A stretch of 64,000 nt of DNA, taken from Nitrospina sp. Lineage in GTDB: Bacteria > Nitrospinota > Nitrospinia > Nitrospinales > VA-1. The notes under the pieces were generated by a model. The model searched no databases. It saw only the letters and a list, made by a program, of their open reading frames with translations, and was not told the DNA's origin. The DNA lies in the NCBI GenBank assembly GCA_018653085.1, contig JABIAY010000059.1, positions 1 through 64,000 on the forward strand. Direction: 5' to 3'. This document shows, in pieces, positions 1,605-46,473 of the stretch. Positions within the stretch are counted from its first letter, which is position 1. Each line of letters starts with the position of its first letter. A program made the position numbers and the translations under genes.

Positions 1605-3674
1605 ATGACGGTAAAAGTCAGTTTTTCTGATTTAACTCATGCGGGAAAAGTGGTTGCGACAGACACGTTCCCTTTGGGGAGTTGTATGATTGCCGCCAAT
1701 GCCCAAAAAATATTGGGCAATGAAATTGATTTCGAAGTTTTCAGGTATCCTGCCGATTTCAGCACCTATCTGAAAAAAAATATTCCTGACCTCGCCTGTT
1801 TTTCGGCCTTTTCGTGGAACATCTGTTTGAGCCACGAGTATGCCCGGAAAATCAAAAAGGCCTTTCCGAAGACTATCACAATTTTTGGAGGGCCTGAATT
1901 TCCTTCAAAATACGAGGAGCAAAAAGCATTCCTCGAAAAATACCCGGCCATCGACTGCTTCTTTGAATTCGAGGGAGAAATGGCTTTCATCGAAATGTTC
2001 AAAGCGATGCAGGCGATAGATTTTGACTGGGAGCGGTTCAAGCGTGAGCGACGAACCGTTCCCAGTATCCGTTACTTAACGGGCGGGGAAATGATTGTCG
2101 CCGAATTGATGCCCCAGGTGACCGACCTCGATAGTTTGCCTTCACCGCATTTGAGCGGAATTTCTGACAAGTTTTATGATGGGGTCCTAACCCCTATGAT
2201 GCAAACGGCCCGAGGGTGCCCTTACTCTTGCACCTTTTGCTGGGAAGGTGGGGACTATTTTCGGAAGATCAAGCGATTTAGTCAGGAAAGGATTGAAACC
2301 GAACTCAACTATATTGTCGACCGAGTTACTGTCCCCGACCTGTATATTGTTGACGCTAATTTCGGCATGTTTAAAGAAGACCTTGAAACCACTCATTTGC
2401 TTGCCGGGCTTAAGGAAAAACATGGTTGGCCCAAATATATGATGACTGCAACGGCCAAGAACCATAAAAAAAGGATGATAGAAATTGTTGGGATTTTGGG
2501 TAGTGACACGATGTCCTCATCTTTTTCTGTTCAGAATACGGACGAAGGAGTCCTCAAGAATATCAAGAGAAAGAATCCGCCTCTGGATCAGATAATCACC
2601 ATGTCTGATACAGCCAACAGCATGGGTGGGCAGAGCAAAGCGGAACTTATTCTCTGCCTGGAAGGCGATAGTAAGACTGCCCACTTTCAATCTGTTTTCG
2701 ACATGCTGGATGCCGGGATGAGCTATATACGGACGTATCAGTTCAGGATGCTTCGTGGTACCGAGTCGGAAAGCAAGGAGAGTCGTGAACAATATGGGTT
2801 GGAGACAAAATACCGGGTTTTGAACCGGTGTTTCGGTACTTATGAGTTTCGAGGGGAGAGCTTCAGCTCCGTAGAAATTGAGGAGATTGTTGTTGCCAGT
2901 AATACCATGAGCTATGCAGATTATCAGGACTGTCGACACCTTGGCTTGACGGTGGAGATTTTTAACAATGATTCTTACTTTGTCGATTTAATCAAGCTTC
3001 TGAACTTCCATGGAATTAAACGTTCGAAGTTTATTAAGGCAGTTGATGAGGCAATAAAACTGGATATGGGACCTCTCGCCAGCCTCTACTGCCAATTTAC
3101 TGAAGAAGAGGAAAAGAATTCCTGGAATTCTTGTGAGGAAGTGGAGGAATTTAGCCAGAAACCAGGTGTGATCCAGCGTTATATAGATGGTGAATATGGG
3201 GCAAACGAACTCTACAAGTATCGCGCTCTGGCAATTGTTACCCAAGCCCAAGAACTTCACCGGTTTGCATTCCAGGTGGCCCGGTTTCTCCTTGATAAAC
3301 AAATTTCTCAAAACCCGGTTTTAAATACATATATAACTGAATTGCAGGAGTTCAGCCTTTTGCGCAAAACGGATCTGATCAATATTGACCAGTTTGCAAG
3401 CCGCAAATTCCATTTTAATTTTGCGATGTTGTTGAAAAACTTATTTGTTCCTGATCCCATGAAGGCATACCAACCCGAAGGCATTGAAGTGGAAGTCTTT
3501 CATTCAGATTCTCAGCGTGAGTTGATTAGTGGTTATATCAGGCAATACGGAGAGGATTTGATAGGAGACCCGCGCCTCCTGATTCGCAACGATATTAATT
3601 TATGGTATCGGACTGCCCGGAATAATAAAGGGGATGGTGCTAAGGAAATGGTTTCTCCTGAGCTCAACTTATAA
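1605..3674 (+). CDS. B12-binding-domain radical SAM protein (paralog 1 of 3, 689 aa)
   Basis: The N-terminal ~170 residues form a Rossmann-like cobalamin-binding-type domain (PLG near residues 26-28, the GGP turn near 90-92, and FEFEGE further on). The radical SAM core has the cluster motif RGCPYSCTFC with Cys205, Cys209 and Cys212 (CX3CX2C). A C-terminal ~250-residue, mainly helical region is shared only with its paralogs here. Near the N-terminus DLTHAG (residues 9-14) carries a histidine conserved in all three paralogs. Members of this superfamily do cobalamin- and SAM-dependent chemistry, often methylation at unactivated carbon or phosphorus. A glycan-modifying role is inferred from context. 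The start is supported by GAGGAG six bases upstream of the ATG. It is strikingly similar to the protein at 18792-20852 and less so to that at 4579-6660. Confidence 0.92.
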   Translation: MTVKVSFSDLTHAGKVVATDTFPLGSCMIAANAQKILGNEIDFEVFRYPADFSTYLKKNIPDLACFSAFSWNICLSHEYARKIKKAFPKTITIFGGPEFPSKYEEQKAFLEKYPAIDCFFEFEGEMAFIEMFKAMQAIDFDWERFKRERRTVPSIRYLTGGEMIVAELMPQVTDLDSLPSPHLSGISDKFYDGVLTPMMQTARGCPYSCTFCWEGGDYFRKIKRFSQERIETELNYIVDRVTVPDLYIVDANFGMFKEDLETTHLLAGLKEKHGWPKYMMTATAKNHKKRMIEIVGILGSDTMSSSFSVQNTDEGVLKNIKRKNPPLDQIITMSDTANSMGGQSKAELILCLEGDSKTAHFQSVFDMLDAGMSYIRTYQFRMLRGTESESKESREQYGLETKYRVLNRCFGTYEFRGESFSSVEIEEIVVASNTMSYADYQDCRHLGLTVEIFNNDSYFVDLIKLLNFHGIKRSKFIKAVDEAIKLDMGPLASLYCQFTEEEEKNSWNSCEEVEEFSQKPGVIQRYIDGEYGANELYKYRALAIVTQAQELHRFAFQVARFLLDKQISQNPVLNTYITELQEFSLLRKTDLINIDQFASRKFHFNFAMLLKNLFVPDPMKAYQPEGIEVEVFHSDSQRELISGYIRQYGEDLIGDPRLLIRNDINLWYRTARNNKGDGAKEMVSPELNL

Positions 3675-3803
3675 GTGCAACTCTGCTTGTTTAATCCTTA
3701 AACGATAAAAAACCCGTTTAATTAACATTTAGGTTATTTTTCTCAACCTGAAAAATAAAAACAGCCTAACATTTCTTTTAGTAATTGCTACCTCAGGCTG
3801 ATT

Positions 3804-4460
3804 CTAATCGGCAATGAACCACCAGTAATCTCCTGTATATCCAATTTCAGGGAAAAGTTTTTTCCATTCTTCAACATGCATGTATGTCTCAGCTGTAAGA
3901 ACCCATTTTAGCAGATTCTGATGCTCCTCCTCATTCCGCCAGGCATCTACCGTTATATAGCTGTTTCCTCTGGAGACACGCTCGATTTCCTGGAGAGACT
4001 TTTTGCAGCGATCAAGAGGAAGGTTGTGGATTGAGTTTATAGAAATAACTAAATCAAAACTATTATCAGGGAAATCCAGCTTGTCGGCGCTTCCCACTTT
4101 CAGGAAGGGCTTAACGGAAGGCATAGCCTGACCGATAGCATATTCGCTTATATCAATTCCCGATACGGTGCAATTGGGCATATCCTCTTTAAAATCATGC
4201 AGCATAAATCCCTTCCCGCACCCAATATCCAGAATGGCAGCATCTTCCGGTAAATGGTAATAACTTTTCATCCGTTCGACAACGGCTTTCCATCTACCAT
4301 CATATTTGTAACCGCCATATCCGCATTTCCGGTCTCCATCAAAAAAATCTTTTCCAAATTGCTTGGCTAGACGAACAATTTCAGGTGTCTTTTCTTCAGC
4401 TCGTTTTTCATAATTGCGTTTGGTGTGGGGGTGTGTGTTTAAAAGATTAATTTCAGGCAC
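3804..4460 (-). CDS. class I SAM-dependent methyltransferase (218 aa)
   Basis: A 218-residue soluble protein with a Methyltransf_11/UbiE-type core. Motif I is ILDIGCGKGFMLHDF, the acidic end of the following strand appears in VSGIDISEYAI, and the post-motif segment reads DLVISINSIHNLPL. A basic stretch precedes the fold (residues ~14-60). It lies tail-to-tail with the radical SAM gene at 1605 and 118 bp downstream of the radical SAM gene at 4579 on the same strand, so it is probably co-transcribed with the latter. Small-molecule or sugar methylation is likely, but the substrate cannot be read from sequence. Confidence 0.85.
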   Translation of the reverse strand: MPEINLLNTHPHTKRNYEKRAEEKTPEIVRLAKQFGKDFFDGDRKCGYGGYKYDGRWKAVVERMKSYYHLPEDAAILDIGCGKGFMLHDFKEDMPNCTVSGIDISEYAIGQAMPSVKPFLKVGSADKLDFPDNSFDLVISINSIHNLPLDRCKKSLQEIERVSRGNSYITVDAWRNEEEHQNLLKWVLTAETYMHVEEWKKLFPEIGYTGDYWWFIAD

Positions 4461-6947: not shown

Positions 6948-7664
6948 CTAGAATACCCCGGAATTGCGCAAAACCAGATTCGATACTTTACAGTTTTTTG
7001 GAGAGTTGATGGCCAACCATATCCAGTGGGCGATATCATCAGGGGAGATCATGCTTTCTGCATCCACCCGCCCTATTGTTCCCGGGACAAGGTCTGTCAG
7101 CGTTGGACCGGGAATAATATTGATTATTTTGATATCTTTATTGGTAAGGTATTTTTCTTCGAGAGAGCGAATCAATCCAGCGACTCCCAACTTGGTAGCC
7201 GCATAGAGCGGAACTGCCTGAGAGGCCTTTAATATGGTTGTGGAGGATATATTTATCAATGCCCCCGTATTTCTTTTTTCAAACAACCTCATGGCATGAT
7301 AGATAGACCAAATAGAGCCAGAAAAATTGGTTTCGATCAAGTCCTGCACTTGCTTGCCATCTAAATGCGTAAAAGGTTTTGAGTAAGCAATGCCAGCGTT
7401 GTTAACAAAAATATCTAGCGGGCCAAACTCAAGCTCGCATGTATTGAAAAATCTTTCAACAGAATCTTTGTCCCTGACATCCCCCTGAAAGGGGAAAACT
7501 TTGACGTGGGGATTTAATGCTTTTATTTCTTCGGCTAAATTTTCGAGTTTATCTATTCTGCGAGCGAAAATGGCAACAGAAACATTTTCTCGGGCCATTT
7601 TCAGTGCAACAGAACGTCCGATTCCACTGCTGGCACCAGAGATAGCGGCAAATTTATAGGTCAT
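6948..7664 (-). CDS. short-chain dehydrogenase/reductase (238 aa)
   Basis: Classical SDR: the glycine-rich cofactor motif SGASSGIG lies at the N-terminus, NNAGIA in the middle, and the catalytic triad appears as ISST followed by YAATK. ARRIDK after the second strand suggests NADP preference (basic residues), which is an inference. Its length matches a classical SDR. It lies 38 bp downstream of another SDR gene (7703-8521) on the same strand and is probably in its operon. In this locus it probably reduces or oxidises a sugar or a small acyl precursor. Confidence 0.88.
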   Translation of the reverse strand: MTYKFAAISGASSGIGRSVALKMARENVSVAIFARRIDKLENLAEEIKALNPHVKVFPFQGDVRDKDSVERFFNTCELEFGPLDIFVNNAGIAYSKPFTHLDGKQVQDLIETNFSGSIWSIYHAMRLFEKRNTGALINISSTTILKASQAVPLYAATKLGVAGLIRSLEEKYLTNKDIKIINIIPGPTLTDLVPGTIGRVDAESMISPDDIAHWIWLAINSPKNCKVSNLVLRNSGVF

Positions 7665-7702: not shown

Positions 7703-8521
7703 TCAAATTGAAAAGTCTTTTTTAAACCTACTAACAAGGCTTCCTGGCTCGTTCAAAGTTATTCCCCCATCTATGACGATATCCTGCCCGGTAATTAATC
7801 TTGCCATTTTGGAGGCTAGAAAAAGAATAGCGTTGCTTAAGTCCTCTGACTGGCCAGGTTGTCCTAGAGGGATACACCAGTTCCATTGCGAACTCCAATC
7901 GGAGTCTGCTTCATATTTGGAAATATCGTGATCTCTTACCAGATATGCCGGGGAAATGCTGTTGACACGTACTCCCTTTGGGCCTCCCCAGACAGCCAGA
8001 TATCTGGTGAGTTGTGTGACCCCGCTTTTGGCTACATGATATCCTATGGGTTGATCAAAGCAGACATGGTTGGAAAGAACAGAGGAGATATTTATAATGT
8101 TTCCGCCCCCGGATTTTTCCATTATAGGAATTATTTCTCGAGCACAATAAAAGTATCCTGATAGGCCAACGTCTAAAGCAAGATCCCAGTCCTCTATAGA
8201 AAGTTCCTTATTGTCAGAATTGAACCTTGGTCTGGCATGATTGATGAGGATATGCGGAGTGATATTCTTTGCGATTATTTCCATGAACATATCATGAACA
8301 GAATCCGGTGAGCGAAGGTCCACAAAGAAAAAATCTGCTTTCCCTCCGCCACTCCTAATAGCTTCAACAGCTTCGTTGCCTTTTTCCTTGTCAATGTCGG
8401 CAAGGACAATATGTAATCCTTCCTGGCCTAAGTTTATTGCAACTTGGAGCCCATGTCCCTGTGCTCCTCCAGAAACCAAAGCTGTTTTTCCGGCCAATCC
8501 AAATTTATTGTGATCAGGCAT
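7703..8521 (-). CDS. short-chain dehydrogenase/reductase, FabG-like (272 aa)
   Basis: Classical SDR with cofactor motif SGGAQGHG, an acidic residue after the second strand (LADIDKEKG, suggesting NAD), and catalytic Ser/Tyr/Lys in NISSVLSNH and YHVAKSG. The usual NNAG tetrad is replaced by INHARP, an uncommon variant in the structural loop. The C-terminus LITGQDIVIDGG is typical of FabG/gluconate-5-dehydrogenase-like SDRs. It sits directly upstream of the SDR at 6948 and downstream of the GT2 at 8604. The fold is certain and the substrate unknown. Confidence 0.88.
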   Translation of the reverse strand: MPDHNKFGLAGKTALVSGGAQGHGLQVAINLGQEGLHIVLADIDKEKGNEAVEAIRSGGGKADFFFVDLRSPDSVHDMFMEIIAKNITPHILINHARPRFNSDNKELSIEDWDLALDVGLSGYFYCAREIIPIMEKSGGGNIINISSVLSNHVCFDQPIGYHVAKSGVTQLTRYLAVWGGPKGVRVNSISPAYLVRDHDISKYEADSDWSSQWNWCIPLGQPGQSEDLSNAILFLASKMARLITGQDIVIDGGITLNEPGSLVSRFKKDFSI

Positions 8522-8603: not shown

Positions 8604-9633
8604 TTAATTTGAAGAAAATATATTATTCCATCGCCTCTTATACCAGGAAAATTTCCCCTTTCGGATGAGCCAGAAAATGCGGCAGATAATTTTTTGAAAC
8701 TTGATGGGGAATTGTGCGGCCTTGAAAAAAATCTTGTCCAGAAAAATTTGACTGGGCAAAGTTTTTTCTATTTGCTGCAAACATTCAACCTGTGATTGTT
8801 CAAGCTTGGTCAAGATTCCCACTCCGTATAAATAACGATTCTTCCTCTTGAAGAACTCAACGAAGGCCGGAGGGAACCAGTTTGAGTAGGTTGTCTCCAT
8901 TAGTACCTCAGCTTTTTTAAGGAGATGTTCGAGCGCTTGTGGGTCTTCCCTGTATTTGGAAGAGAAGCTAGTGGCTTTTATATTATAGATAGCCAGGGGT
9001 TCGGGGATGAAGCAGACCCCATAATTCAAACTAATCATTAAAAGAGTAAATTCATCGAGGATATTTTCTAGTTCCATTGGAAACCCCCGTGTTTCTATTG
9101 CGGGTTCCCTTCTCCAAATAGCAGTATTCCCCACAATCTCCTCATTCGTTTTTATGTAAGCGTCAAGGACTTTTTCCGGAGAGAGATAAGAAGGTGTGTC
9201 TGCAATGTAGGGACGCAAAGGGTTCTCGTGTTGTTTTTCTCCGTTATCCAAGATGCTGATTCCTGAGCATAGTCCAGCTTTTGGATATTGTTCAAGTAAG
9301 GCCATACTCTTTTCAAAAAAACCTGGTAAAATCTTGTCATCAGCGCTGGCCAAATAAAAATAATCCCCTTCAATGTTTTCCCATCCTCTCCGAAATGAGT
9401 AAATGGGGCCCTTATTTACTTCGTTTCTAATAAGTTTTATTGCCGAGTATTTTTTCGCAAAGTCTTCAATTACTTCGATACTGTTATCTGTGGAAGCATC
9501 ATCCACAATAATCACTTCCATAGGCGGATACGATTGTCCTAATATGGCCTCAAGAGCAATGGGAAGAACGTGAGCATCGTTGTAATTTGGTATTACTACA
9601 GAGATTGTTTTAGAGATGATTTTTCCCCCACAT
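8604..9633 (-). CDS. glycosyltransferase family 2; start separated by one base at a G5A5 tract
   Basis: GT-A fold family 2 transferase: VVIPNYND, VIIVDDASTDNS and the acceptor-side ASADDKI are all present. The frame encoding the essential first strand (ISVVIPNYND) runs up to a stop without any ATG, GTG or TTG. An ATG at 9633, preceded by AAGG, would read into it if one base were removed from the GGGGGAAAAA run around 9620-9629. The only in-frame ATG (9521) would delete the first strand. So the gene is either frameshifted, has an unusual start codon, or contains a sequence error. It resembles the GT2s at 22388 and 43636, sharing VDDASTDNS and a C-terminal FPPAFVEF-type segment. Confidence 0.8.
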
Positions 9634-9731: not shown

Positions 9732-11519
9732 TCAATTTTCTTTGCGGGAGATATCGACCGGTTCGATTATCATGTTGTCAAAAAAATCATCTCTGGACAA
9801 GAGGGGTTCAGCATCTTCAAGAGGTCTCCCAAATTTTACCTGGGGTACGACCCTGCAGTCAGGTTTCAATTCAACATTGCAAAATGCGGGGCTTTCGTCG
9901 CTCAATACGTCCCTGATTTTTTCAGTAATTCCGGTGTTTTGATCCAAAGTGCTGGTGCTAAATCCGTATGCGTTGGCCACTTTGACAAAATCAGGGAAAG
10001 CCAGCCCCTTTTCAACATTTGCGGCTTCATATTTAGAGTCTAACCATTGGTCCTGAGTTTGCATGATCATGCTGTACCCATGGTTATTTATGAGAAATAT
10101 CTTGATAGGTAGCTGGTGCCTTATGACCGTAGCAAGTTCCTGTATGTTCATTTGCAACCCGCCATCACCGGTAATGCAAATGACTCTTTTTTTGCCAGCG
10201 GCAAAGCAGGCGCCGATGCTTGCTGGCAGAGCGTAGCCCATTGGGGTTGTGTTGAAAGCATGGAAAAATCTCTGCCCTTTTTTGAATTCGAATGCTTGGG
10301 TCATCCAAACCAGACCACAACCAGTGTCTGAGACGATGATATCACCTTCCCGCAGTTCTTCGGATAGTTTTTTCACAAAAACGTATGGATTGAGGTCTTC
10401 TTCTTCGAAAAAATCCGGATCGCAGATGGGGAACTTTTTTTTCCAATCTTCAATTTTTTTCTGCCACGCCGAAGTATCCAAGGGAGTGATTTCTCCAGAC
10501 CGTTTGTTTATTGCCGTCAAAAAGTCTCGGCAGTCGGCTTGCACAGTTACATCCGGATTAATCCCCAAATTTTTAAATTTACCCAGCTCGTAACCATCGA
10601 TATCGACGATTATTTTTTTTGCTGCCCTGGCAAAATGCTCTGGTGGTGAGCCAGATTTTCTTACATCCAGCCTTGAGCCCAGGGCAATAACCAAGTCGGA
10701 GTTTTGTACTGTGAAATTCCCATAACGCGTGCCATGAGAACCAAATGGTCCCACTATCTGGGGATGGACGGCGGGAAAGAAATCTCGCATTGCAAATGAT
10801 ACCAGAACCGGAAACCCGCAGGCCTCTACAAATCTCAAGGTTTCCTCTTCCGCCTTTGCCAGACGAATTCCCCAGCCCAATACAATGACAGGTCTTTTGG
10901 CAAGGTTGATAAGGTCTATGCACTGTTTGATTTTCCCATCCAAGGAGGAGGGGGCGTCGACTTTTGTTTCGGGGATAAATGGCCTGAGTTCGTCTGGATT
11001 AATATCTTCACGTTGCAAGTTATCTGGAATATCAACTACCACAGGTCCAGGGCGGTCTGACTTGGCAATATGCACAGCTTTCTCCAATTCATAGCGAATA
11101 TCGCTGACATCTTTGACCAAGACAGCATACTTTGTGACAGGTTTGAATATATCCACCGTGTCAGTCTCTTGGAACCCAAGTTGCCTGATTCCTAACGTCT
11201 CCTTCATACGAAAAGTCGAGACTTGTCCTGTGATATAGATTGCGGGTACTGAATCATAGAAGGAACAACATACCCCGGTAATCATGTTTGTGGCTCCTGG
11301 TCCGCTAGTAGAGATTGCTGCGCCAAGATTTCCAGTTACTCTAGAGTATGCATCTGCCATCATCGCGCCGGCCTGTTCATGTTGAGGGCAAATGTAATCA
11401 ATTCCCGGGGTTTTGGATGCTGAATCAATCAAATGTACTGAAGCACCTCCCGTTATCGCAAATACATGCTTGATGCCCTGTTTGGCCAAGAACTGGATTA
11501 CATAGTCTGAAAGTTTCAT
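9732..11519 (-). CDS. thiamine-diphosphate enzyme, acetolactate-synthase-like (595 aa)
   Basis: Three-domain TPP enzyme of the IlvB/POX family: the N-terminal pyrimidine-binding domain has the catalytic glutamate in CPQHEQAGAMM (Glu48), then a central Rossmann-like domain, and the C-terminal PP domain has ITGDGGLQMNIQEL (GDG at 451-453) with the closing INNHGYSMI. Full length for the family (~560-600 aa). No regulatory small subunit (IlvN) is nearby, which argues against branched-chain amino-acid biosynthesis. Known relatives in sugar clusters (YerE-type) add a two-carbon unit to a keto-sugar, giving a branched sugar. That role fits this location but is inference. It is separated by 98 bp from the GT2 start. 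Confidence 0.88.
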   Translation of the reverse strand: MKLSDYVIQFLAKQGIKHVFAITGGASVHLIDSASKTPGIDYICPQHEQAGAMMADAYSRVTGNLGAAISTSGPGATNMITGVCCSFYDSVPAIYITGQVSTFRMKETLGIRQLGFQETDTVDIFKPVTKYAVLVKDVSDIRYELEKAVHIAKSDRPGPVVVDIPDNLQREDINPDELRPFIPETKVDAPSSLDGKIKQCIDLINLAKRPVIVLGWGIRLAKAEEETLRFVEACGFPVLVSFAMRDFFPAVHPQIVGPFGSHGTRYGNFTVQNSDLVIALGSRLDVRKSGSPPEHFARAAKKIIVDIDGYELGKFKNLGINPDVTVQADCRDFLTAINKRSGEITPLDTSAWQKKIEDWKKKFPICDPDFFEEEDLNPYVFVKKLSEELREGDIIVSDTGCGLVWMTQAFEFKKGQRFFHAFNTTPMGYALPASIGACFAAGKKRVICITGDGGLQMNIQELATVIRHQLPIKIFLINNHGYSMIMQTQDQWLDSKYEAANVEKGLAFPDFVKVANAYGFSTSTLDQNTGITEKIRDVLSDESPAFCNVELKPDCRVVPQVKFGRPLEDAEPLLSRDDFFDNMIIEPVDISRKEN

Positions 11520-12263: not shown

Positions 12264-12989
12264 ATGAGAGAACAAGTTTTTGGACCCTCAGGATACTTTG
12301 CGGATTTGTCCCTTCCCGCAGAAAATATCAGCCGCTTAAGAAGCATGATAAGTGACCATTGGCGATCCCATCTTAAGTCTGTTGCTCCAAAGCACGCATG
12401 CCATTTCGAGCAGCTTGAGATGGACCGGTACCACGAAAAGTCTGATTTGTTGGATCACCATGCCATCTGGCCAAAGGAAGCTCGGATTCTCTCGCTGGAA
12501 AATGTTAAAGAGATTCGTCAAATGAGTTTCTTTGAAGAACTGGAATCAGATTTTGGAACTTTTGAGATTTCCGATGAAAACGATGTGGGGCGAGAAGAGA
12601 TTTATTGGAGAATAGTCCGCCCCAATGAGGGTCAGGATATGGGCCCCTTGCACGCTGATGCGTGGTTTTGGGAATTGGGGCATGGCTACACACCTGATAA
12701 TGTCAAACGCGTTAAAATTTGGATCGGGATTTATGTTGAACCCGGAGCCAGTGGGTTTAGGTACTCTCCGGGAACTCATTTGAAGGAGTGGCCTTATCAC
12801 GGCATTAAAAAAGATGGTATTATGAAGCCAGTTATTGAGACTCCTGATGAAGAGTTGAACCCGATTACTTTCATGGGGGAATCTGGAGATGCCATTCTGT
12901 TTCATGATCGGCTGATCCATGGGGGGGCGCCGAGCGTAGGGGGAAAAACCAGGGTGAGTATGGAATTCACAATGTTTGTTAAGCCCTAA
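12264..12989 (+). CDS. phytanoyl-CoA dioxygenase (PhyH)-like Fe(II)/2-oxoglutarate oxygenase (241 aa)
   Basis: Double-stranded beta-helix oxygenase: the metal-binding HxD is in LHADAW, the distal histidine in HDRLIHGGAP, and the 2-oxoglutarate-binding arginine in TRVSMEF. YSPGTH is the usual PhyH-family turn. Relatives hydroxylate or oxidise small molecules, including sugar- or lipid-linked substrates. No Shine-Dalgarno is obvious before the ATG. It is followed after 164 bp by a second, divergent oxygenase, suggesting successive oxidations (inference). Confidence 0.82.
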   Translation: MREQVFGPSGYFADLSLPAENISRLRSMISDHWRSHLKSVAPKHACHFEQLEMDRYHEKSDLLDHHAIWPKEARILSLENVKEIRQMSFFEELESDFGTFEISDENDVGREEIYWRIVRPNEGQDMGPLHADAWFWELGHGYTPDNVKRVKIWIGIYVEPGASGFRYSPGTHLKEWPYHGIKKDGIMKPVIETPDEELNPITFMGESGDAILFHDRLIHGGAPSVGGKTRVSMEFTMFVKP

Positions 12990-13153: not shown

Positions 13154-13984
13154 ATGAATTATAATCGAGATGTTGAAAAGTTTGAGATAGAAGGTTATTT
13201 GCTCCATTCCCTGGAGGACAAGGAAGATGTCTTTGCGGTGAGAGATATTTTTAAGGGCGAACTTAAAAAGATTCTGGGAAAAGAGATTGAACTGGAGGAT
13301 TATCATAACCACGTGAAAGATGATGACCAGCATCAGAAGATACACTACAAGTTGTATAAATATCTTTTGACGAATCAAAACCATATAGCATTTTTCACGA
13401 AGAATCAGAAATTTTTTGAATCAATAATGGGTTTGGATGTGGATATTCAAATCGAACCCAAATTTAGAATATCAAGGCCGGGAAAACCCCAGGATAATAT
13501 AGGCTATCATTATGATCTGGACTATGGGAATTCCCCCTATGAAGTATCCTGCATGATTAACCTGACAGACGTAGATGAGGGAGGAGCAGTCAGGTTTTTA
13601 TCCAGGTCTCATGCTCAGCCAAAACTCAAAACTCATCCTGTCGAAAGTGTAGGGGTGGAAAAGGGTTCCATTAAACATCAGTTGGGGGTTCCTTATTTGC
13701 TCCAGCGTGTGGTGGATGAAAGCTACAAATCCGAAATGTTTCCTATTCCCTTCAATGTTGGAGAAGTGCTTTGTTTCGACTTGGGCATTCTGCACGGGCT
13801 GGAAGTCAGTAATTCCGAGACCACTCGGTTTTCCATTGACTGCCGCCTAAAAAGCCCGCTCGCAAATTCAGGTGTCCGCCAAGGTTACTACAAGAGTCTT
13901 TTTCGAAGCCCTTTAGCTAAAGCGGCGGCAAGATTTTATGAGGCCAACCCGGATGCTCTGGAGGAGGATAGGTCTGTAGGATAA
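13154..13984 (+). CDS. phytanoyl-CoA dioxygenase-like Fe(II)/2-oxoglutarate oxygenase (276 aa)
   Basis: Second oxygenase of the pair, only distantly like its neighbour. The HxD motif is in GYHYDLDYG, the distal histidine in GILHGLEVS, and the 2-oxoglutarate arginine in TTRFSIDCR. A central INLTDVDEGGAVRFL strand-turn is typical of the fold. The start is supported by AGGA seven bases before the ATG. It probably oxidises a sugar or nucleotide-sugar intermediate of this locus, but nothing in the sequence names the substrate. Confidence 0.8.
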   Translation: MNYNRDVEKFEIEGYLLHSLEDKEDVFAVRDIFKGELKKILGKEIELEDYHNHVKDDDQHQKIHYKLYKYLLTNQNHIAFFTKNQKFFESIMGLDVDIQIEPKFRISRPGKPQDNIGYHYDLDYGNSPYEVSCMINLTDVDEGGAVRFLSRSHAQPKLKTHPVESVGVEKGSIKHQLGVPYLLQRVVDESYKSEMFPIPFNVGEVLCFDLGILHGLEVSNSETTRFSIDCRLKSPLANSGVRQGYYKSLFRSPLAKAAARFYEANPDALEEDRSVG

Positions 13985-14197: not shown

Positions 14198-15178
14198 ATG
14201 ACTTTATCGACCAGGTTGCAGGGTTTGGATGCCGAAAAGTTTCTCGAGGAAGATTTGGGAAGCCCCATGGAGGATTTATTGGCTTTCCCAAAATATATTG
14301 ATATAGAGACTGTAAACACTTGTAACGCACGTTGCGTGATGTGCGAGATCGATTTTTCGAAGCCGAAAGCATTCATGTCCGATGCTCTTTTTGATAAAAT
14401 TTTGGCAGAGTTGGCAGAAGACAAAGATCGCGTTGAGAAAGTGCATCTTTATAAAGACAACGAACCTCTTATCGACAATAGACTTTCCGGGCACATCCGA
14501 AGATTAAAAGAAATCGGGATCAAATGTGTGAACATTTCCACCAACGGGTCCCTGTTAGATAAAAAAGGGCAGGAGTTGTTGGAATCGGGTCTGGATGAGA
14601 TTTATATCAATGTTGATTCTTTGAAAAAAGAGGTCTATGAAAATATTAGGGTAGGGTTGAACTTTGAGCAGGTCTATAACAGTACCGTTGACTTTATCCG
14701 TTTGCGAGATCAGATAAACCCTGGTTTGCTTATTCGCTTACAGATGATAGTTCAAGAGGAAAACCACACGGAAGTCACCGATTGGATCAAGCACTGGGAG
14801 GAGAAACTCAGCCCAAACGATCAGGTTGTAGCGGCCAAGGCGCATAATTGGGGGTCGCAGATTGATGTGATGGATTTCAACGATGATTATGACCCTAACG
14901 ATTTTCCTTGCATGTCGCTTTGGGGCACGTTAACCATCCATCAAAGCGGCAGGGTGAGTCTTTGTGGAGTGGATACGCACTTGAAAATACCTATCGGCGA
15001 TATTCAAACACATTCCATGGTGGATATCTGGCAGAACAGCAAAGCCCTTAACAGAGTCCGGGAAATGCACCTCAAGGGCCAGAGAGAAAAGATCAATATT
15101 TGCAACGGTTGTTCAGTTTGGAGAAAAACTGAAAACGAGAGTGTTAAGCATGTGGCAAAAAAAACAATTGGGAGCTAA
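14198..15178 (+). CDS. radical SAM/SPASM domain protein (326 aa)
   Basis: The N-terminal radical SAM motif is TCNARCVMC (Cys42, Cys46, Cys49), followed by the core strand ISTNGS. The C-terminal SPASM-type region has FPCMSLWG, VSLCGVD and ICNGCSVW cysteines, which in the family bind one or two auxiliary [4Fe-4S] clusters. There is no B12-binding domain, unlike the other radical SAM proteins here. SPASM proteins include peptide and sugar modifiers, for example dehydrogenases and epimerases. The locus suggests a sugar substrate (inference). It ends 53 bp from the convergent fkbM gene. Confidence 0.9.
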   Translation: MTLSTRLQGLDAEKFLEEDLGSPMEDLLAFPKYIDIETVNTCNARCVMCEIDFSKPKAFMSDALFDKILAELAEDKDRVEKVHLYKDNEPLIDNRLSGHIRRLKEIGIKCVNISTNGSLLDKKGQELLESGLDEIYINVDSLKKEVYENIRVGLNFEQVYNSTVDFIRLRDQINPGLLIRLQMIVQEENHTEVTDWIKHWEEKLSPNDQVVAAKAHNWGSQIDVMDFNDDYDPNDFPCMSLWGTLTIHQSGRVSLCGVDTHLKIPIGDIQTHSMVDIWQNSKALNRVREMHLKGQREKINICNGCSVWRKTENESVKHVAKKTIGS

Positions 15179-15231: not shown

Positions 15232-16215
15232 TCAGTCCGGGTTTAACTCAATTGACTGATTGTAATCATTTAGTTCCATCATAGGTTCATCAAAGATAGC
15301 TTGGAATGCTTCTTGATGTTTTCTAAGTGATTGGCCGGGTTGCCATTTAAGTGTGTAGAAGTGTTTGTGTAGAGCTACGAATAGAAAGCTATAAAGCTTG
15401 GTGTTTTTTAGTGGTTCATAACTAATCGTGAGCTCCTGCCGGGCCTCTAGAAGAATATGGACTGCTAAATCGGGTGCATTGTTGTTCATGCAAAAGGCGG
15501 CATATTTTAATATGGGAACTTGCTGCATTCCATCTTCCGAGTCGTTTGAATCAAACACATCTTTCAGGCGCCTAACCCATACTGCGTCACAATCCTGTAT
15601 TATCCCATACCTGCCATTAGCATCAGCAAATTCGTTGCATAAAAAACCTCTCCCATTGTAATCCAGGTTTAATAGAAAGAAATTTTTGTTCAACATGAAG
15701 TCATGTATTTCGGCAAACGTTGGCATGCCTTCAAATATTCGGTCGAAATTGACCTCGCAACGAACTCCCAATAAATTATTCAGTTGGAAGGATGAACCTT
15801 GCAGAATTTTATATTCATTTCCTTCTACATCGAGTTTTAAAAAATCTGCTTTCAGTTGATTGTCATGGCAATAAGAATCTATGGTGATGGTGTCAACTTC
15901 CAGCTTCTCTACAACCTCAACCTGTTCTTTTCGCTCCCCAGAAAAAAACTCCAACTTTGGGTCGCGTGCATAGGATGTGCTCATGGCACGATTTTTCAAT
16001 ATGTTTATTGTTATTCCAGCATCTGAGTCAGAAAGAGCACGCTGGTCAACAATAATCTCATCAGAGCGGTCGGCATATTTCGTCTTTAATCTTTCTGCTT
16101 CCTGAAGGTCAGGTTCAAACAAAAAGTATTTTAATTCCCCTGAAAAGGGTTTCCAGCTAGGGTGTAGACCATATCGGCCGCCAGCGTCAATTACAATCGT
16201 ATGGATGTTGGTCAT
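15232..16215 (-). CDS. FkbM family methyltransferase with C-terminal extension (327 aa)
   Basis: FkbM-type SAM methyltransferase: the SAM-binding strand reads VIDAGGRYGLHP (in place of the common DVGANxG), followed by FLFEPD. The family hallmark DFLKLDVEGNEYKILQG is intact. Residues ~230-327 form an extension beyond the usual domain. FkbM proteins methylate hydroxyls on sugars or polyketides. A degraded copy of the last ~90 codons lies in opposite orientation at 18273-18537. It is probably in one operon with the SDR at 16244 (28-bp gap) and the C-methyltransferase at 17023. Confidence 0.88.
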   Translation of the reverse strand: MTNIHTIVIDAGGRYGLHPSWKPFSGELKYFLFEPDLQEAERLKTKYADRSDEIIVDQRALSDSDAGITINILKNRAMSTSYARDPKLEFFSGERKEQVEVVEKLEVDTITIDSYCHDNQLKADFLKLDVEGNEYKILQGSSFQLNNLLGVRCEVNFDRIFEGMPTFAEIHDFMLNKNFFLLNLDYNGRGFLCNEFADANGRYGIIQDCDAVWVRRLKDVFDSNDSEDGMQQVPILKYAAFCMNNNAPDLAVHILLEARQELTISYEPLKNTKLYSFLFVALHKHFYTLKWQPGQSLRKHQEAFQAIFDEPMMELNDYNQSIELNPD

Positions 16216-16243: not shown

Positions 16244-16951
16244 TTACCAGGAAATTAACTCGCCCTCATAGGTGCGGAATAAGCCGTTATCCTTAGGTGT
16301 GGATTCTGAGATGAGCTTCCTCATTCCTGCAATGCTAATTGAGGCATCCAGCTCGGCATCATCTTCAGACATGCCGGTTCGGACAAAGCCAGGATGAAGC
16401 ACTATAACACAAATCTTTTGAGGCTCTAAATCAAAGGCTAGGCTCTGGGTTGCGGCATTGAGGGCGGCCTTGCTCGAGCGGTAAATATAGCTTCCCCCAT
16501 GTTGGTGATGAGGCAGTTTCCCTCGTTCCGAAATACTGCCGGCGCGTGATGAAATAAATGCGATCTTTTTCTGTGCGCTTCTCTTTACATTTTCAAGAAA
16601 AGCCTCTGCGACCTTTAGCGGTGATATAGAATTGCTTAGAAAAACTTTTAGCCATTCATTCGCGTCAATATCTCCAAACGAAGCGCTGTTGTCATAGGGC
16701 CCGTGTTCGGCTGCATTATTGATTAAAACATCGATAGCGTGGTTACGATATTCAAGAGAAACCTTCTTGATTTGCTTTTGGTCTGTTATATCCATCTGAC
16801 AAACCTTGACGTTCCCTTGGAGAGATTTCAATTCCTGGGCTGCCTCTGGGTTTCGGCAGGAGGCTATTACTTCCCAACCGTCGTTTGCATATTGGCGACT
16901 GAACTCCAGTCCCAATCCTCTATTAGCGCCTGTAATAAAAACGGTTGGCAT
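16244..16951 (-). CDS. short-chain dehydrogenase/reductase (235 aa)
   Basis: SDR of the CsgA/sniffer-like type: the cofactor motif TGANRGLG starts the protein, NNAAEHG replaces the usual NNAG, and the active site appears as ISSRAGSIS and YRSSKAALN. The C-terminus carries VLHPGFVRTGM, the usual PG loop. It sits between the fkbM gene and the C-methyltransferase on the same strand with short gaps. It probably reduces a keto-sugar after C-methylation (inference from order). Confidence 0.85.
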   Translation of the reverse strand: MPTVFITGANRGLGLEFSRQYANDGWEVIASCRNPEAAQELKSLQGNVKVCQMDITDQKQIKKVSLEYRNHAIDVLINNAAEHGPYDNSASFGDIDANEWLKVFLSNSISPLKVAEAFLENVKRSAQKKIAFISSRAGSISERGKLPHHQHGGSYIYRSSKAALNAATQSLAFDLEPQKICVIVLHPGFVRTGMSEDDAELDASISIAGMRKLISESTPKDNGLFRTYEGELISW

Positions 16952-17022: not shown

Positions 17023-18270
17023 TTACTTCTTTACGATTTTTGTGTCGGGAAGCGGAACAATGAACGCTCCACCCCGATCCAGATATTCCCGGTTCCTCTC
17101 GATAATAGCATCCTGGTATTGCCATGCGAGGATAACGACATATTCTGGCATGTCCTCATATAGTTTTCCGGAAGCATAAACCGGGAGATGATATCCTGGA
17201 GAATAGAGACCCTGCTTGATGGGATTGTCATCAACAATATATTCAAGATGACCTCCTATTTCGAATTGATGCGCCAGGGTTGTGGTGCTGATCGACGCCC
17301 CATATCCGACAATTCTCTTGTTCTCGGACTTCAAGGGATTCAGCAATTCTAACAGGGCAATTTTACGGTCGTTTATATCTTCTGCAAAACGGAAGTAGGT
17401 TTCACACTTGTGCATTCCGGCGGCCTCTTCATTCTGGATGAAAGCGTCTACGCTTTGGTCGATTTTGCGCTGTCCACCGGCATGCTGGGCAATAGCTCTG
17501 ACAGACCCTCCCTTCATGGGGTTGGTTTCCACATGAAGTAGCTCGAAACCACAGTCCTGTAGTAATCGACTTAAAACTTTTACGGTAAAATAAGCGATAT
17601 GTTCGTGGTAAATATAATCGAACATAAATATCTTCATTTGCTCGGGGTGGTAACCGGTTTGAATTACAAATATTCCATCTTCATCCAATAGCTCTTTAGC
17701 GTCCCTTGTAAATTGTTTGACGTCATCGATATTGGCATACATGTAGTTTGCGGTTACTATTGCGGCCTTGCCCTGGTTCTTTACAATGTTTTTTGCGAGC
17801 TCTTCATTAAAATAGTCCCGAATCGTTGGTACGATATCATTGGCTTTTAAAGCAATCACGCTGGGTTCTATTCCCAGCACCGTCATGCCTAGATTTTGAA
17901 ACACCTCAAGCAATGAACCATCGTTACTGCCTAAATCAACTACCATGCTTCCTTTGGCGGTCTTGGAAATTGAGAGTACCTTTTCTGCGTATTCTTTAAA
18001 ATGTTGTCTAAGGCCAAGAGTGACCTTCGATTCGTAAAGATAGTCAGAATAAATTAATTTAGGGTCCAGAACATGGGGCAGGTGAAGGTAACCGCATGCT
18101 TCGCATAGAGCCAAAATAAGAGGGTGTTTTTCTTTAGAACTATCAAGTTGTGACTCTGGTACAAAACGGTCACCGGGAGGTGTTGGTTTTAGTTCCCAGA
18201 CATCCTTAGTTTTTTGAGATCCGCAAATTCTGCAACTCTTGTCCAATCGGATAGGTTCATCAGAGCTCAT
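17023..18270 (-). CDS. sugar C-methyltransferase (zinc-binding N-terminus, Methyltransf_13/14 type)
   Basis: The N-terminus CRICGS with a later LCEAC is the CxxC...CxxC zinc-binding domain of TylC3/NovU-type nucleotide-sugar C-methyltransferases. The middle domain carries the SAM motif VVDLGSNDGSLLEVF and IEPS. The C-terminal domain contains RIVGYGASISTTTLAHQF and the closing YVVILAWQYQDAII strand. These enzymes methylate carbon 3 (or 5) of dTDP-4-keto-6-deoxysugars, yielding branched sugars. I chose the ATG at 18270, preceded by AAAGGA, over a TTG at 18294, because the upstream codons overlap a pseudogene of fkbM. It may use a 4-keto intermediate from the rfbB product. Confidence 0.88.
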   Translation of the reverse strand: MSSDEPIRLDKSCRICGSQKTKDVWELKPTPPGDRFVPESQLDSSKEKHPLILALCEACGYLHLPHVLDPKLIYSDYLYESKVTLGLRQHFKEYAEKVLSISKTAKGSMVVDLGSNDGSLLEVFQNLGMTVLGIEPSVIALKANDIVPTIRDYFNEELAKNIVKNQGKAAIVTANYMYANIDDVKQFTRDAKELLDEDGIFVIQTGYHPEQMKIFMFDYIYHEHIAYFTVKVLSRLLQDCGFELLHVETNPMKGGSVRAIAQHAGGQRKIDQSVDAFIQNEEAAGMHKCETYFRFAEDINDRKIALLELLNPLKSENKRIVGYGASISTTTLAHQFEIGGHLEYIVDDNPIKQGLYSPGYHLPVYASGKLYEDMPEYVVILAWQYQDAIIERNREYLDRGGAFIVPLPDTKIVKK

Positions 18271-18272
18271 AT

Positions 18273-39235: not shown

Positions 39236-39317
39236 TACCCCTACGGGGCACGAAAGCTAAGGTAAAATATCACATGCACTGGCCCCACGCCTAGTGGCTT
39301 GACTGCAAAGCCTGCGA
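39209..39317. repeat. 20-bp direct repeat, copies 89 bp apart
   Basis: CTTGACTGCAAAGCCTGCGA occurs at 39209-39228, where it encodes the end of the DUF3565 protein (LDCKACE), and again at 39298-39317 in the same phase outside the gene. Between them is a stretch with a small CCCCTACGGGG hairpin and a dispersed GC-rich repeat (39279-39297). This looks like a tandem duplication or insertion event at the gene's 3' end. Confidence 0.7.
39279..39297. repeat. short dispersed stem-loop repeat, copy A
   Basis: CTGGCCCCACGCCTAGTGG here recurs identically at 62567-62585, with a related version (GCCCCCACGGCTAGTGG) inside the FGE-like gene at 61276-61292. The region CACTGG...CCTAGTG can form a six-pair stem. 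Dispersed, palindromic and small, it resembles a REP- or MITE-like element. Copies flank or lie in genes with no sequence relation. Confidence 0.55.
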
Positions 39318-39335
39318 CTCTGAGCCTTCGGGGTG

Positions 39336-41664: not shown

Positions 41665-43239
41665 ATGAATATTGGTTTGATATCACCCTACCCAGATATA
41701 CAGTCCTTTGGACTAAGAACTTTATCCGCGTGCCTTAAACAAGAAGGTCATAACGTAAAAATAGTCTTTCTGTTGAGCCAGTTTTGGGATAAATACGAAG
41801 ATCAGCCATTAAATGAAACCGTTGATTTGTTAAAAGACTGTGATTTGATTGGGTTATCTGTGATGTCAAATTTCTGGGATAATTCTGTGCAAATCACGGA
41901 AAGGCTGAAAAAAGACATTGATGCGCCAATAATATGGGGAGGTACTCACCCAACAATCCGGCCTGAAGAGTGTATAGAGCGTGGGGGGGCAGATATAGTA
42001 TGTATAGGCGAGGGGGAAGAAACTCTTATTGAGCTAGCAAGTAAAATGGAAAACGGGGATGATTATAGTTCGATTGAGGGAATAGGTTTAAAAGACAATG
42101 GAGAAACGGTTATTAATAAAACACGACCGTTAACTGTAGACTTGGATGTTTTCCCGTTTCAGGATTATGATTTTGAGACACACTATGTCCTGGACGGCAA
42201 CAATATGGACAATTACAAATATGGTAAAGCTAACGATCATCTTTCCAAAATGACGCTGGATTTGTTGAAAAAACACAGCATGGGGGATTATGTTACTATG
42301 CCCACTCGCGGCTGTCCTTTTGGGTGTACATTCTGCGTCAACGACACTCTCAATAAAATGTATGCGGGCCAACCCATAATTCGTAAAAGAAGTATGGGTA
42401 ATTTAATGAAAGAATTAAAAGAGATTAAGAAAAATCTGCCCTATGTGAACAATATTTATTTTGATGATGATTCCTTTATTCTACTTAGCACAGAACAAAT
42501 CAAGGAGTTTAGTGAGGAATACAAAGAACATATAGACCTGCCTCTTTCTGTTACGGGAATAACCCCCTCAACTCTTCGTAAGGATAAGTTGACCCACCTT
42601 GTAGACGCGGGTGTGCAATTTATAAGAATGGGTTTGCAATCAGGAAACGAGGCCATAAAAGAAGATTACAAGAGAAATTATTCAAACAAAAAGGTTGAAA
42701 GTTCCGTTGCAATAATAAATGAGTTCAAGGAGGAAATGGGCCCACCGCAATACGATATCATCCTTGATAACCCTTGGGAAACAGATGAAAACCTGGAAGA
42801 AACGCTTATGTTTTTAACAAAATTGCCGGCTCCGTATCGCCTTGGTTTTTATTCTCTGACCTTCTACCCGGAAACGGAGTTATATGATAAGGCAAAAAAA
42901 GACGGAATAATAAAAGATGGTTTTGTACATGATTTAAACGACGTATATCGCAAAACTTATAATGGTATTCAAAAAACATATTTAAACAGGATATTCTTTT
43001 TACTTAGCGCTTCAATGGGCACAATGTCAACGAGAACGATGTCTTTGTTGCTGAACAAAAAAGTAAGAAAACTTAAATTAGGCATGGTGTTGTATGCGAT
43101 TTTATCTATAAAGTATGCGATGCTCTCAAGGTTGATTTTGGAAGCCCTGAAGGATCTTAAAAAGGGAGAATTTTATAGGTTGAAGAGATGGTTTTTTAGG
43201 AAGATACCAATGCTAAGGCCTATGAAAGGAACCCTGTAA
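41665..43239 (+). CDS. B12-binding-domain radical SAM protein (524 aa)
   Basis: N-terminal cobalamin-binding-type domain (IGLISPYPDI, LIGLSVMSNFWDN, IIWGGTHPTIRPEECI, VCIGEGEETLIEL) followed by the radical SAM core with RGCPFGCTFC (Cys217, Cys221, Cys224). FDDDSF and IRMGLQSGNEAI complete the core pattern. The C-terminal ~100 residues are rich in basic and hydrophobic residues (MLYAIL-like), suggesting membrane association. It belongs to the usual BchE/MagCidA-type B12 radical SAM superfamily rather than the ~690-residue group above. AAAGG nine bases before the ATG supports the start. Substrate unknown. Confidence 0.9.
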   Translation: MNIGLISPYPDIQSFGLRTLSACLKQEGHNVKIVFLLSQFWDKYEDQPLNETVDLLKDCDLIGLSVMSNFWDNSVQITERLKKDIDAPIIWGGTHPTIRPEECIERGGADIVCIGEGEETLIELASKMENGDDYSSIEGIGLKDNGETVINKTRPLTVDLDVFPFQDYDFETHYVLDGNNMDNYKYGKANDHLSKMTLDLLKKHSMGDYVTMPTRGCPFGCTFCVNDTLNKMYAGQPIIRKRSMGNLMKELKEIKKNLPYVNNIYFDDDSFILLSTEQIKEFSEEYKEHIDLPLSVTGITPSTLRKDKLTHLVDAGVQFIRMGLQSGNEAIKEDYKRNYSNKKVESSVAIINEFKEEMGPPQYDIILDNPWETDENLEETLMFLTKLPAPYRLGFYSLTFYPETELYDKAKKDGIIKDGFVHDLNDVYRKTYNGIQKTYLNRIFFLLSASMGTMSTRTMSLLLNKKVRKLKLGMVLYAILSIKYAMLSRLILEALKDLKKGEFYRLKRWFFRKIPMLRPMKGTL

Positions 43240-44679: not shown

Positions 44680-44940
44680 TTCCATGATCTGCGCGGAAGC
44701 TGGTTTAGATAGGCTGGCAAGCACGAAATGGGTTAAATATACTTGGGTTTTGAAAAAGAGATTGAGAAATAACTGAATTCGAAATCGTCCGACCAGAAAA
44801 ATCCTATCCCAAGAAATAATCCCTCGTTATAGCCCCATCTCTTGAATTCATGCGGTTTGCCTAAACCCCGTTTGGTAATTTGAATTTTGTGTTAAAATGA
44901 GCCGTTGATTTATAATGTTCGTTTTTCCCCCAAGTCACTC

Positions 44941-46473
44941 ATGAAAGTTTGCCTGATTGAACCCCCTAAATTTGTATCCCTGACAAACTTCGTGTCTACG
45001 ATCAGTATGCCGCCTATCGGTTTGGCATATATAGCGGCGGCAATACGTGAAGAAGGTCATGATGTCACTGTTGTGGATGGACCTGGTTCCGCGCCCAGAA
45101 ATTACCACCTATTTAAAGATGAGATTCGGGTAAGAGGTTTGACTCGAGAGCAAATCATTGAGCGTATCCCTTACGATTCTCAGGTCATTGGCTTGGGGTG
45201 CATGTTCACTTCCCACTGGGTCTATGTGCGTGAACTGGTTTCTGAAATTCGCAAGTTATTTCCCACGGCATTTTTGTTGATGGGAGGCGAGCACGTTACT
45301 GGCTTCCCTGAGTTTTCTCTGGAGCAAGCTCCTTTGGATAGCGTAGTACTGGGAGAAGGGGAGGAAACAATTGTCCAATTACTGGAGCATGTTGAGAAGG
45401 GCTTACCGTTGGAGGATGTTCTCGGAATTGCTTATAAAGATGCGGAGGGGGTAGTTCGAGTAAATTCTCGGCGCAACAGAATGAAAGGAATTGATTCCAT
45501 TGCCCAACCCGCATGGGATTTGTTTGACATTCAAAAATATAATGAAGTCAATCAGCCCCACGGCTCTTCACAGGGGAAGTTCATGCCTATGCTGGCGACG
45601 CGTGGTTGCCCGTTCTCTTGCACCTTCTGTACAAGTCCCAATATGTGGACTACAGAATGGATTCCCAGGGATTATAAGCGGGTGGTAGATGAGATGCAGG
45701 AGTATCAAAATAGCTATGGTGCCACAGACTTTCAGTTTGAAGACCTTACCGCAATTGTGCGAAAGGACTGGATAGGTAGCTTTTGTGATGAAATCATCAG
45801 CCGTGGTATGAAAATTACTTTTCAACTGCCATCGGGAACTCGTAGCGAAGGTATTGACTTTGAAATTGCCACAAAATTAAAGGCGGCGGGGTGCCATGAG
45901 TTTTCATTTGCTCCGGAATCTGGTGACCCTCGTATATTGAAGGCGATTAAAAAGAAAGTCGATTTGCCCAAAATGTTCGATTCCGCACGCAGTGCGCTAA
46001 AAGCAGGGATCAATGTGGGGTGCTTTTTTATCATTGGATTTCCTGAGGACGATTACCGCAGTGTGCTCAAGACTTATGGGGCAATTATCCAATGTGCAGT
46101 GATCGGCTTTACTAATGTAAACCTCAATGCTTATTCTCCTCAGCCCAATACCGAATCTTTCCGAGAGCTTCAAAGGGTGGGGGTAATTACTGAATTTGAT
46201 GATAAATACTTGATGAGTTTGTTTACTTTTCAGGACTTTGGTGCCAAAAAAACTTCATACAATTCCCGATTCGGAGATTTAGAGCTCTCTCTGATGGTTA
46301 ATTTTGGTGTGTTTTTATTTTATGTGATTTATTTTCTACGCAAACCAAATAGAATTGTTCAGTTGTTTTTGGATATGGGAAGCGAGTCTGCAAGTAACAA
46401 GTCAACCAAAATGGCCAAGTCATTTTTCAAAGATGCTTTCACGATCATGAAAAACAAGTTGATAAAGAACTGA
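44941..46473 (+). CDS. B12-binding-domain radical SAM protein (510 aa)
   Basis: KVCLIEPPKFVSLTNF is the first strand of a cobalamin-binding-type domain, followed by PPIGLAYIAAAIREEG, GGEHVTGFPEF and LGEGEETIVQLL. The radical SAM core has RGCPFSCTFC (Cys223, Cys227, Cys230) and EFSFAPESGDPRILKAI, IGFPEDDYRSV. The C-terminal segment has a hydrophobic stretch (FGVFLFYVIYFL) suggesting membrane association. I use the ATG at 44941; a TTG at 44905 would add 12 poorly matching residues. It lies between a GT2 and a methyltransferase-GT2 fusion. Confidence 0.9.
   Translation: MKVCLIEPPKFVSLTNFVSTISMPPIGLAYIAAAIREEGHDVTVVDGPGSAPRNYHLFKDEIRVRGLTREQIIERIPYDSQVIGLGCMFTSHWVYVRELVSEIRKLFPTAFLLMGGEHVTGFPEFSLEQAPLDSVVLGEGEETIVQLLEHVEKGLPLEDVLGIAYKDAEGVVRVNSRRNRMKGIDSIAQPAWDLFDIQKYNEVNQPHGSSQGKFMPMLATRGCPFSCTFCTSPNMWTTEWIPRDYKRVVDEMQEYQNSYGATDFQFEDLTAIVRKDWIGSFCDEIISRGMKITFQLPSGTRSEGIDFEIATKLKAAGCHEFSFAPESGDPRILKAIKKKVDLPKMFDSARSALKAGINVGCFFIIGFPEDDYRSVLKTYGAIIQCAVIGFTNVNLNAYSPQPNTESFRELQRVGVITEFDDKYLMSLFTFQDFGAKKTSYNSRFGDLELSLMVNFGVFLFYVIYFLRKPNRIVQLFLDMGSESASNKSTKMAKSFFKDAFTIMKNKLIKN

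Follow-up and report, generated by a model that had tools for sequence, protein, structure and literature searches.

TokK-type radical SAM genes linked to thiamine-diphosphate sugar-branching-type enzymes in a surface-polysaccharide locus of Nitrospina

Introduction

TokK, CysS and the KedN5 family are radical S-adenosylmethionine (SAM) enzymes that bind cobalamin (B12), act as methylcobalamin-dependent C-methylases and are known from antibiotic contexts. In TokK and CysS, the lower face of the cobalamin is filled by a tryptophan, Trp76 and Trp75, respectively (PMC13331322, PMC12846815). A counterpart by reaction is GenK, a radical SAM enzyme that C-methylates a sugar, at C-6' of gentamicin X2, again in an antibiotic pathway (PMC4039129). 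Here we analyze a 64,000-nucleotide stretch of a Nitrospina sp. genome (contig JABIAY010000059.1, assembly GCA_018653085.1; hereafter the window), in which six radical SAM genes, rSAM_A to rSAM_E and one SPASM-type gene, lie within a surface-polysaccharide locus.

Two-carbon branches are placed on keto sugars by thiamine-diphosphate (ThDP) enzymes, either YerE or pairs of the AviB1/AviB2 or Pau11/Pau12 type, and can later be reduced or methylated (PMC4753412, PMC12247030). YerE is a single chain and belongs to lipopolysaccharide (LPS) synthesis, whereas the alpha-KADH2 pairs consist of two chains and have so far been described for antibiotics (PMC12247030, PMC4753412). A review of sugar branching makes no mention of radical enzymes (PMC12247030). 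Our literature search, made in one collection with subscription papers lying outside it, returned no description joining B12-dependent radical SAM enzymes with sugar branching or O-antigen loci, and nothing relevant on radical SAM enzymes in Omnitrophota or on KedN5. What is new is that TokK-type genes are linked to ThDP enzymes of the sugar-branching type.

Results

All six radical SAM open reading frames are present (Table 1) and carry an intact CX3CX2C motif, the first cysteine of which is residue 205 in rSAM_A and rSAM_C, 207 in rSAM_B, 217 in rSAM_D and 42 in the SPASM protein. In rSAM_E it is Cys235 if counted from a TTG at 44905 and Cys223 from the ATG at 44941, which is most likely the start. 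Reading frames, motif positions and Pfam domains agree with the original prediction of six such genes, five of them with a B12-binding domain: PF02310 and PF04055 occur in five proteins, and PF04055 with SPASM in the sixth. The radical SAM Pfam score of rSAM_B (21.6) lies below the gathering cut-off of 29.5, and its identity was settled by PDB and fold matches.

rSAM_A, rSAM_B and rSAM_C are of the TokK/CysS type. A profile built from nine relatives and searched against the PDB (hmmsearch) matched TokK (E 2e-86), CysS (E 3e-72) and little else. Foldseek aligned the AlphaFold model of rSAM_B (pLDDT 89.9) to TokK with TM-scores of 0.76/0.79 over 713 columns and to CysS with 0.72/0.79; these matches span the whole length (about 710 columns), including the C-terminal domain, at 22% and 18% identity, respectively. 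The model shows the TokK-type architecture of an N-terminal cobalamin Rossmann domain, a radical SAM barrel and a C-terminal domain. The equivalent of TokK Trp76, Trp71 in rSAM_A and Trp73 in rSAM_B, is invariant across 31 aligned homologs. The profile matches, the full-length fold and the conserved tryptophan suggest that rSAM_A-C are most likely methylcobalamin-dependent C-methylases. They share domain order, full fold, CX3CX2C motif and lower-axial tryptophan with TokK, CysS and the KedN5 family (NCBIfam NF033712), but they are not members of that family, because they score 203, 151 and 214 bits against a cut-off of 700. They differ from all three, moreover, in their glycan context.

The TokK-type genes are sporadic and do not follow taxonomy. 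In a phylum sample of 77 genomes, all of a single class, KedN5-like matches were found in seven, and relatives of rSAM_A-C span about ten phyla. rSAM_B groups with two Omnitrophota, one Myxococcales bacterium and Reyranella (100/100), followed by four IMG/VR contigs (SH-aLRT 97 with five bacterial rows, 100 with nine rows including IMG/VR), while rSAM_A and rSAM_C group with Magnetovibrio. The neighbors of 16 genes of this type are mainly short-chain dehydrogenases (SDRs), methyltransferases, epimerases, NeuB, glycosyltransferases and other radical SAM genes, and recognizable sugar-nucleotide or glycosyltransferase genes adjoin at least 19 of the top 32 KedN5-like genes. The earlier statement that such genes are not usually clustered in O-antigen loci was thus too strong, as relatives in about ten phyla often lie among such sugar genes. 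The closest relatives of rSAM_A and rSAM_B sit in sugar-gene clusters and not in the unrelated, non-glycan settings that would have spoken against a glycan role. The genome carries a fourth TokK-type gene (L025 9634-11655; G000 contig C13), which lies in another sugar locus and is 39% identical to rSAM_C.

Within the window, ThDP enzymes accompany these genes in two minus-strand runs. Run 1 (11519 to 3804) comprises an acetolactate-synthase (ALS)-type ThDP enzyme, a family 2 glycosyltransferase (GT2), two SDRs, rSAM_B and the small methyltransferase MT25. Run 2 (30956 to 15232) comprises a pair resembling the alpha and beta subunits of pyruvate dehydrogenase (PDH) E1, SDRs, a GT2, an acyltransferase, rSAM_C, a C-methyltransferase and FkbM genes. 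The GDG motif of the ALS-type enzyme is intact. We rejected its assignment as the housekeeping ilvB, since a separate conserved ilvB-type gene, 35% identical, is present in the genome. It resembles YerE-type enzymes (yersiniose; JanthE) both in its ALS-like family and in its setting, an LPS-type locus that also holds SDRs; it differs in being paired with a B12-radical SAM gene. It is called YerE-like by context, as by sequence it scores almost equally with acetohydroxyacid synthase (AHAS). The E1 pair, as in alpha-KADH2 systems (AviB1/AviB2, Pau11/Pau12, KbDH), has adjoining subunits (E1_dh and Transket_pyr/C domains) beside sugar genes and reductases; a scan of window genes revealed no domain of the E2 type (2-oxoacid dehydrogenase acyltransferase). 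It differs in that here E1 pairs lie in surface-glycan loci with B12-radical SAM genes. A housekeeping PDH was rejected, as the genome has no second close E1-beta and the relatives' pairs lie in sugar operons. The original prediction had pointed out ThDP enzymes nearby, which are indeed present, but did not draw the specific link between them and the TokK-type genes.

That link recurs elsewhere. Of 8 rSAM_B-clade loci outside the window, 6 have a ThDP enzyme of one of these types no more than 12.5 kb away, compared with 7 of the 135 KedN5-like genes outside the clade (Fisher P 4e-6). These counts include related loci, so that P values overstate independence, and contigs of differing length. 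The pairing is found in Omnitrophota, in Reyranella and in IMG/VR contigs. One locus (L035) forms an operon-like run of E1-alpha (57% identical), E1-beta (63%), an alcohol dehydrogenase, an SDR2 relative and an rSAM_B relative (54%), with MT25 (57%) further on. Three IMG/VR contigs carry rSAM_B relatives (44-46%) together with epimerases, SDRs and an ALS split into two reading frames (38-48% to the window ALS). The contigs with this cassette are L160/L240 (IMGVR_UViG_3300038552_000125), L161 and L162. L240 also encodes head-closure (phrog_578) and DNA-ejection (phrog_598) proteins, which points to a phage or prophage carrying the sugar cassette; the remaining IMG/VR contigs, of which a few proteins were scanned, showed no phage hallmarks.

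The same association emerged from the E1 side. A B12-radical SAM gene stands beside 7 of 10 readable E1-beta loci of the relatives, or 8 of 10 if one about 9.5 kb away is counted. Five of these loci (L150-L154) are one operon, which starts with a BchE-like gene and runs in the order B12-radical SAM, E1-alpha, E1-beta, epimerase, HddA-like kinase, HddC-like nucleotidyltransferase, RfbH-like 3-dehydrase and reductase. Its GHMP kinase is nearest to HddA, its nucleotidyltransferase nearest to HddC, and its reductase resembles GDP-fucose synthase; its DegT-family protein is nearest to RfbH and has the active-site lysine replaced by histidine, the mark of a 3-dehydrase. By analogy, the predicted functions follow yersiniose-type logic (3-deoxygenation, addition of a two-carbon unit at C-4, reduction) plus a B12-radical SAM step. 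The same eight genes, at 30-63% identity, occur in an Omnitrophota locus (L063) and, reordered, in genome G030. The operon's radical SAM gene is present in 8 of the 77 genomes of the phylum, accompanied by the E1 genes in seven. Complete, or partial at contig ends, the set was seen in L150-L154, L158, L159 and L063, scattered across families. Among other E1 loci, L148 has a KedN5-like gene, L146 a B12-radical SAM gene 5 kb away, and L147 an adjoining SPASM-type gene with a B12-type one about 9.5 kb off. L155 and L156 lack radical SAM genes, and their E1 proteins may be ordinary dehydrogenases.

The window as a whole is a surface-polysaccharide locus, as originally proposed, with Wzy (31250), FlaA1/PseB (33175), Wzx (36738), RmlD/A/B (49186-52079), a WecA-type GlcNAc-phosphate transferase (55209) and several GT2 genes; the genome comprises 78 contigs and 3.16 Mb in total. 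A genome of the same genus (G017) retains the locus frame, which runs from MocA-hexapep past wzx and wecA, with identities of 64-93%. Conservation beside wzx and wecA in related genomes, suggested earlier as a check, proved divided: the G017 locus holds rSAM_E with the methyltransferase-GT2 fusion and the epimerase, but rSAM_A, rSAM_B and rSAM_C are absent from that entire genome. Neither rSAM_D nor the ALS-type or E1 genes were seen in the stretches of the G017 locus that were read. The GC content is 0.42 in the left part (1605-29228) and 0.48 at 46.6-64 kb. Their absence from G017 and the lower GC content mark rSAM_A-C as an accessory cassette. As part of our best explanation as a whole, the window would be a species-variable polysaccharide locus with recruited sugar cassettes, a view that we hold with evenly balanced confidence.

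The density of radical SAM genes exceeds chance. The genome contains 60 PF04055 and 16 PF02310 matches above cut-off; from these totals, 0.85 PF04055 matches would be expected in the 45-kb region, where six are found (Poisson P 3e-4), and 0.23 PF02310 matches, where five are found (P 4e-6), figures inflated by one recent duplication. rSAM_A and rSAM_C are 76% identical in protein and form a 2,063-nucleotide inverted repeat (1586-3648 and 18809-20871, 78%). Between the C-methyltransferase and rSAM_C, part of the FkbM gene's end is repeated in inverted orientation (15238-15480 and 18294-18536, 75-84%), a rearrangement remnant beside this duplication.

The six genes were earlier taken as one system. 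We rejected this because rSAM_E, the methyltransferase-GT2 fusion and the epimerase are a conserved family unit and rSAM_D has only distant relatives. rSAM_E orthologs, 72-91% identical, occur in 15 other genomes of the family sample of 46, usually with the same two partners. Sequence comparison thus assigns the six genes to three origins: the sporadic rSAM_A-C, rSAM_E in its family-conserved unit, and rSAM_D and the SPASM gene separately. HpnJ, BchE and TIGR04295 (B12_rSAM_oligo) are among the closest NCBIfam models of rSAM_D and rSAM_E, but all scores are far below cut-off; membership in HpnJ or BchE was rejected, the scores of 109 and 143 bits comparing with cut-offs of 578 and 481, respectively. 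rSAM_D and the SPASM protein are likely to serve a sugar or lipid-linked modification. Relatives of the latter lie near TokK-type or E1 genes in L045, L056 and L147, those of Pelagibacteraceae being closest (35-42%).

Discussion

We propose that a 4-keto sugar is branched with a two-carbon unit, reduced, and then C-methylated by a B12-radical SAM enzyme, the product entering the surface polysaccharide; the chances that this is correct are roughly equal either way. The ThDP enzyme would move a two-carbon unit from pyruvate onto a keto sugar nucleotide, an SDR would reduce the branch, and the TokK/CysS-type enzyme would place at least one methyl group from methylcobalamin on an unactivated carbon of the branched sugar. 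rSAM_B would serve run 1, and rSAM_C, with rSAM_A as its duplicate, run 2. Glycosyltransferases, Wzx and Wzy would assemble and export the product, whereas rSAM_D, rSAM_E and the SPASM protein would act on other residues. Unusual carbon skeletons, as predicted originally, would be the most likely outcome. What the analysis shows are the protein families, the intact radical SAM motifs, the TokK fold, the tryptophan at the cobalamin face, the locus type and the recurrent TokK-type/ThDP linkage; sugar branching by the ThDP enzymes, action of rSAM_A-C on the branched sugar, C-methylation as their reaction and the presence of the product in the polysaccharide are inferred from protein families and gene neighborhoods.

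Besides the limited independence of the linkage counts, several observations weigh against the proposed pathway. The substrates of TokK and CysS are pantetheine-bound and not sugar nucleotides, as judged from PDB entry titles. The ALS-type enzyme scores almost equally against JanthE (8rph, 336 bits) and AHAS (5ahk, 327 bits). In the window E1-alpha, the ThDP/Mg motif (GDx...N) reads GRA (codon CGC, 28187-28195, minus strand) where eight compared homologs have GD or GE; because the metal-ligand aspartate, present in alpha-KADH2 enzymes, is lost, the window pair may lack activity, or the base may have been miscalled. Finally, one rSAM_B-clade locus (L037), which spans 13 kb, shows no ThDP gene, and the nearest relatives of rSAM_A and rSAM_C (L034 and L038) have none adjacent.

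An unlikely alternative is a CysS-like reaction, in which the TokK-type enzymes would lengthen an O-methyl group: a sugar hydroxyl would first be methylated by MT25 or by an FkbM protein, and the radical SAM enzyme would build the methoxy group up to an ethoxy or isopropoxy group. CysS, an iterative methoxy methylator, is a fold neighbor, and no gene accompanies the A/B clade more faithfully than MT25, whose relatives (45-57% identical) stand beside 5 of 6 genes of that clade and 0 of 56 others. However, this reading gives the ThDP partners and SDRs no part in the reaction, the B-clade loci from IMG/VR yielded no MT25, and the reaction of MT25 is itself putative. Equally improbable, in our estimate, is that the locus gathered unrelated radical SAM genes, each for a different residue, with an incidental ThDP link. 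The clearly separate histories of rSAM_D, rSAM_E and the SPASM gene fit such a view, as do the habit of glycan loci to accumulate cassettes and the presence of MT25 without a ThDP gene in L034 and L038, but the link recurs in several phyla and IMG/VR contigs, and does so from both the radical SAM and the E1 sides. Least probable is methylation of a pantetheine-held acyl chain that the acyltransferase at 21098 would later place on the glycan: the pantetheine-bound substrates in TokK and CysS structures and the acyltransferase-3 and AMP-binding proteins of the window would suit it, but no acyl carrier or ketosynthase was found among the window genes scanned or in the 25 commonest families of the relatives' 133 neighbors.

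If branching followed by radical methylation is correct, radical B12 methylation would be a means of diversifying cell-surface sugars, carried by uncultured bacteria and by at least one contig that encodes phage structural proteins. A TokK- or BchE-type gene beside YerE or E1-alpha/beta would then be a genome signature of branched, methylated sugars, and many ThDP branching and B12-radical SAM enzymes would have a likely shared substrate, with both activities testable in vitro. More tentatively, and with somewhat less confidence than in the pathway itself, we suggest that it has spread horizontally through bacterial and phage surface-glycan loci, yielding branched-alkyl sugars so far unknown in glycans.

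Other features of the locus

Table 1. Coordinates and assignments of genes in the window
Feature	Coordinates	Strand	Remarks
rSAM_A, TokK/CysS-like B12-binding radical SAM, 689 aa	1605..3674	+	PF02310+PF04055; aligned with PDB 7kdx/9n1b; lower-axial Trp W71
MT25, small SAM methyltransferase accompanying A/B clade	3804..4460	-	
rSAM_B, TokK/CysS-like B12-binding radical SAM, 693 aa	4579..6660	-	AlphaFold, Foldseek; W73
SDR1, short-chain dehydrogenase	6948..7664	-	
SDR2, short-chain dehydrogenase, candidate branch ketoreductase	7703..8521	-	in L035, a 39% relative immediately precedes the rSAM_B homolog
GT2 glycosyltransferase	8604..9521	-	
ALS-type ThDP enzyme, YerE-like by context	9732..11519	-	best PDB match JanthE 8rph
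PhyH-type Fe(II)/2-oxoglutarate (2OG) oxygenase	12264..12989	+	
2OG oxygenase related to TIGR04324 'sporadic carbohydrate cluster'	13154..13984	+	73 bits, cut-off 150
Radical SAM/SPASM protein without B12 domain	14198..15178	+	PDB relatives BtrN, cytosylglucuronate decarboxylase
FkbM-type methyltransferase	15232..16215	-	
SDR3	16244..16951	-	
NDP-hexose C-methyltransferase type	17023..18294	-	Methyltransf_13/23/14
rSAM_C, duplicate of rSAM_A (76% identical)	18792..20852	-	
Acyltransferase-3	21098..22261	-	
GT2 glycosyltransferase	22388..23491	-	
FkbM-type methyltransferase	24809..25669	-	
SDR4	25693..26517	-	
PDH-E1-beta-like ThDP subunit (alpha-KADH2 type)	26579..27730	-	only close copy in genome
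PDH-E1-alpha-like ThDP subunit	27654..28622	-	GDx motif reads GRA
GmhA-like SIS isomerase	28638..29228	-	
rSAM_D, HpnJ-like B12-radical SAM	41665..43239	+	
rSAM_E, BchE-like B12-radical SAM, family-conserved	44941..46473	+	
Methyltransferase-GT2 fusion, conserved rSAM_E partner	46569..48083	+	
Epimerase/dehydratase, conserved rSAM_E partner	48099..49172	+	

First Rfam and tRNA scans gave no matches. An FAD enzyme at 34211-35413 scores 311 bits against the L-2-hydroxyglutarate oxidase cut-off of 299; its relatives (67-89%) occur in G017, L150 and L157, and the L157 copy adjoins a B12-radical SAM gene. Genes for an HDOD-domain protein and a DnaJ-MORN protein (38161-40019) lie inside the polysaccharide locus, a position kept in the congeners G017 and G020 (71-85%).

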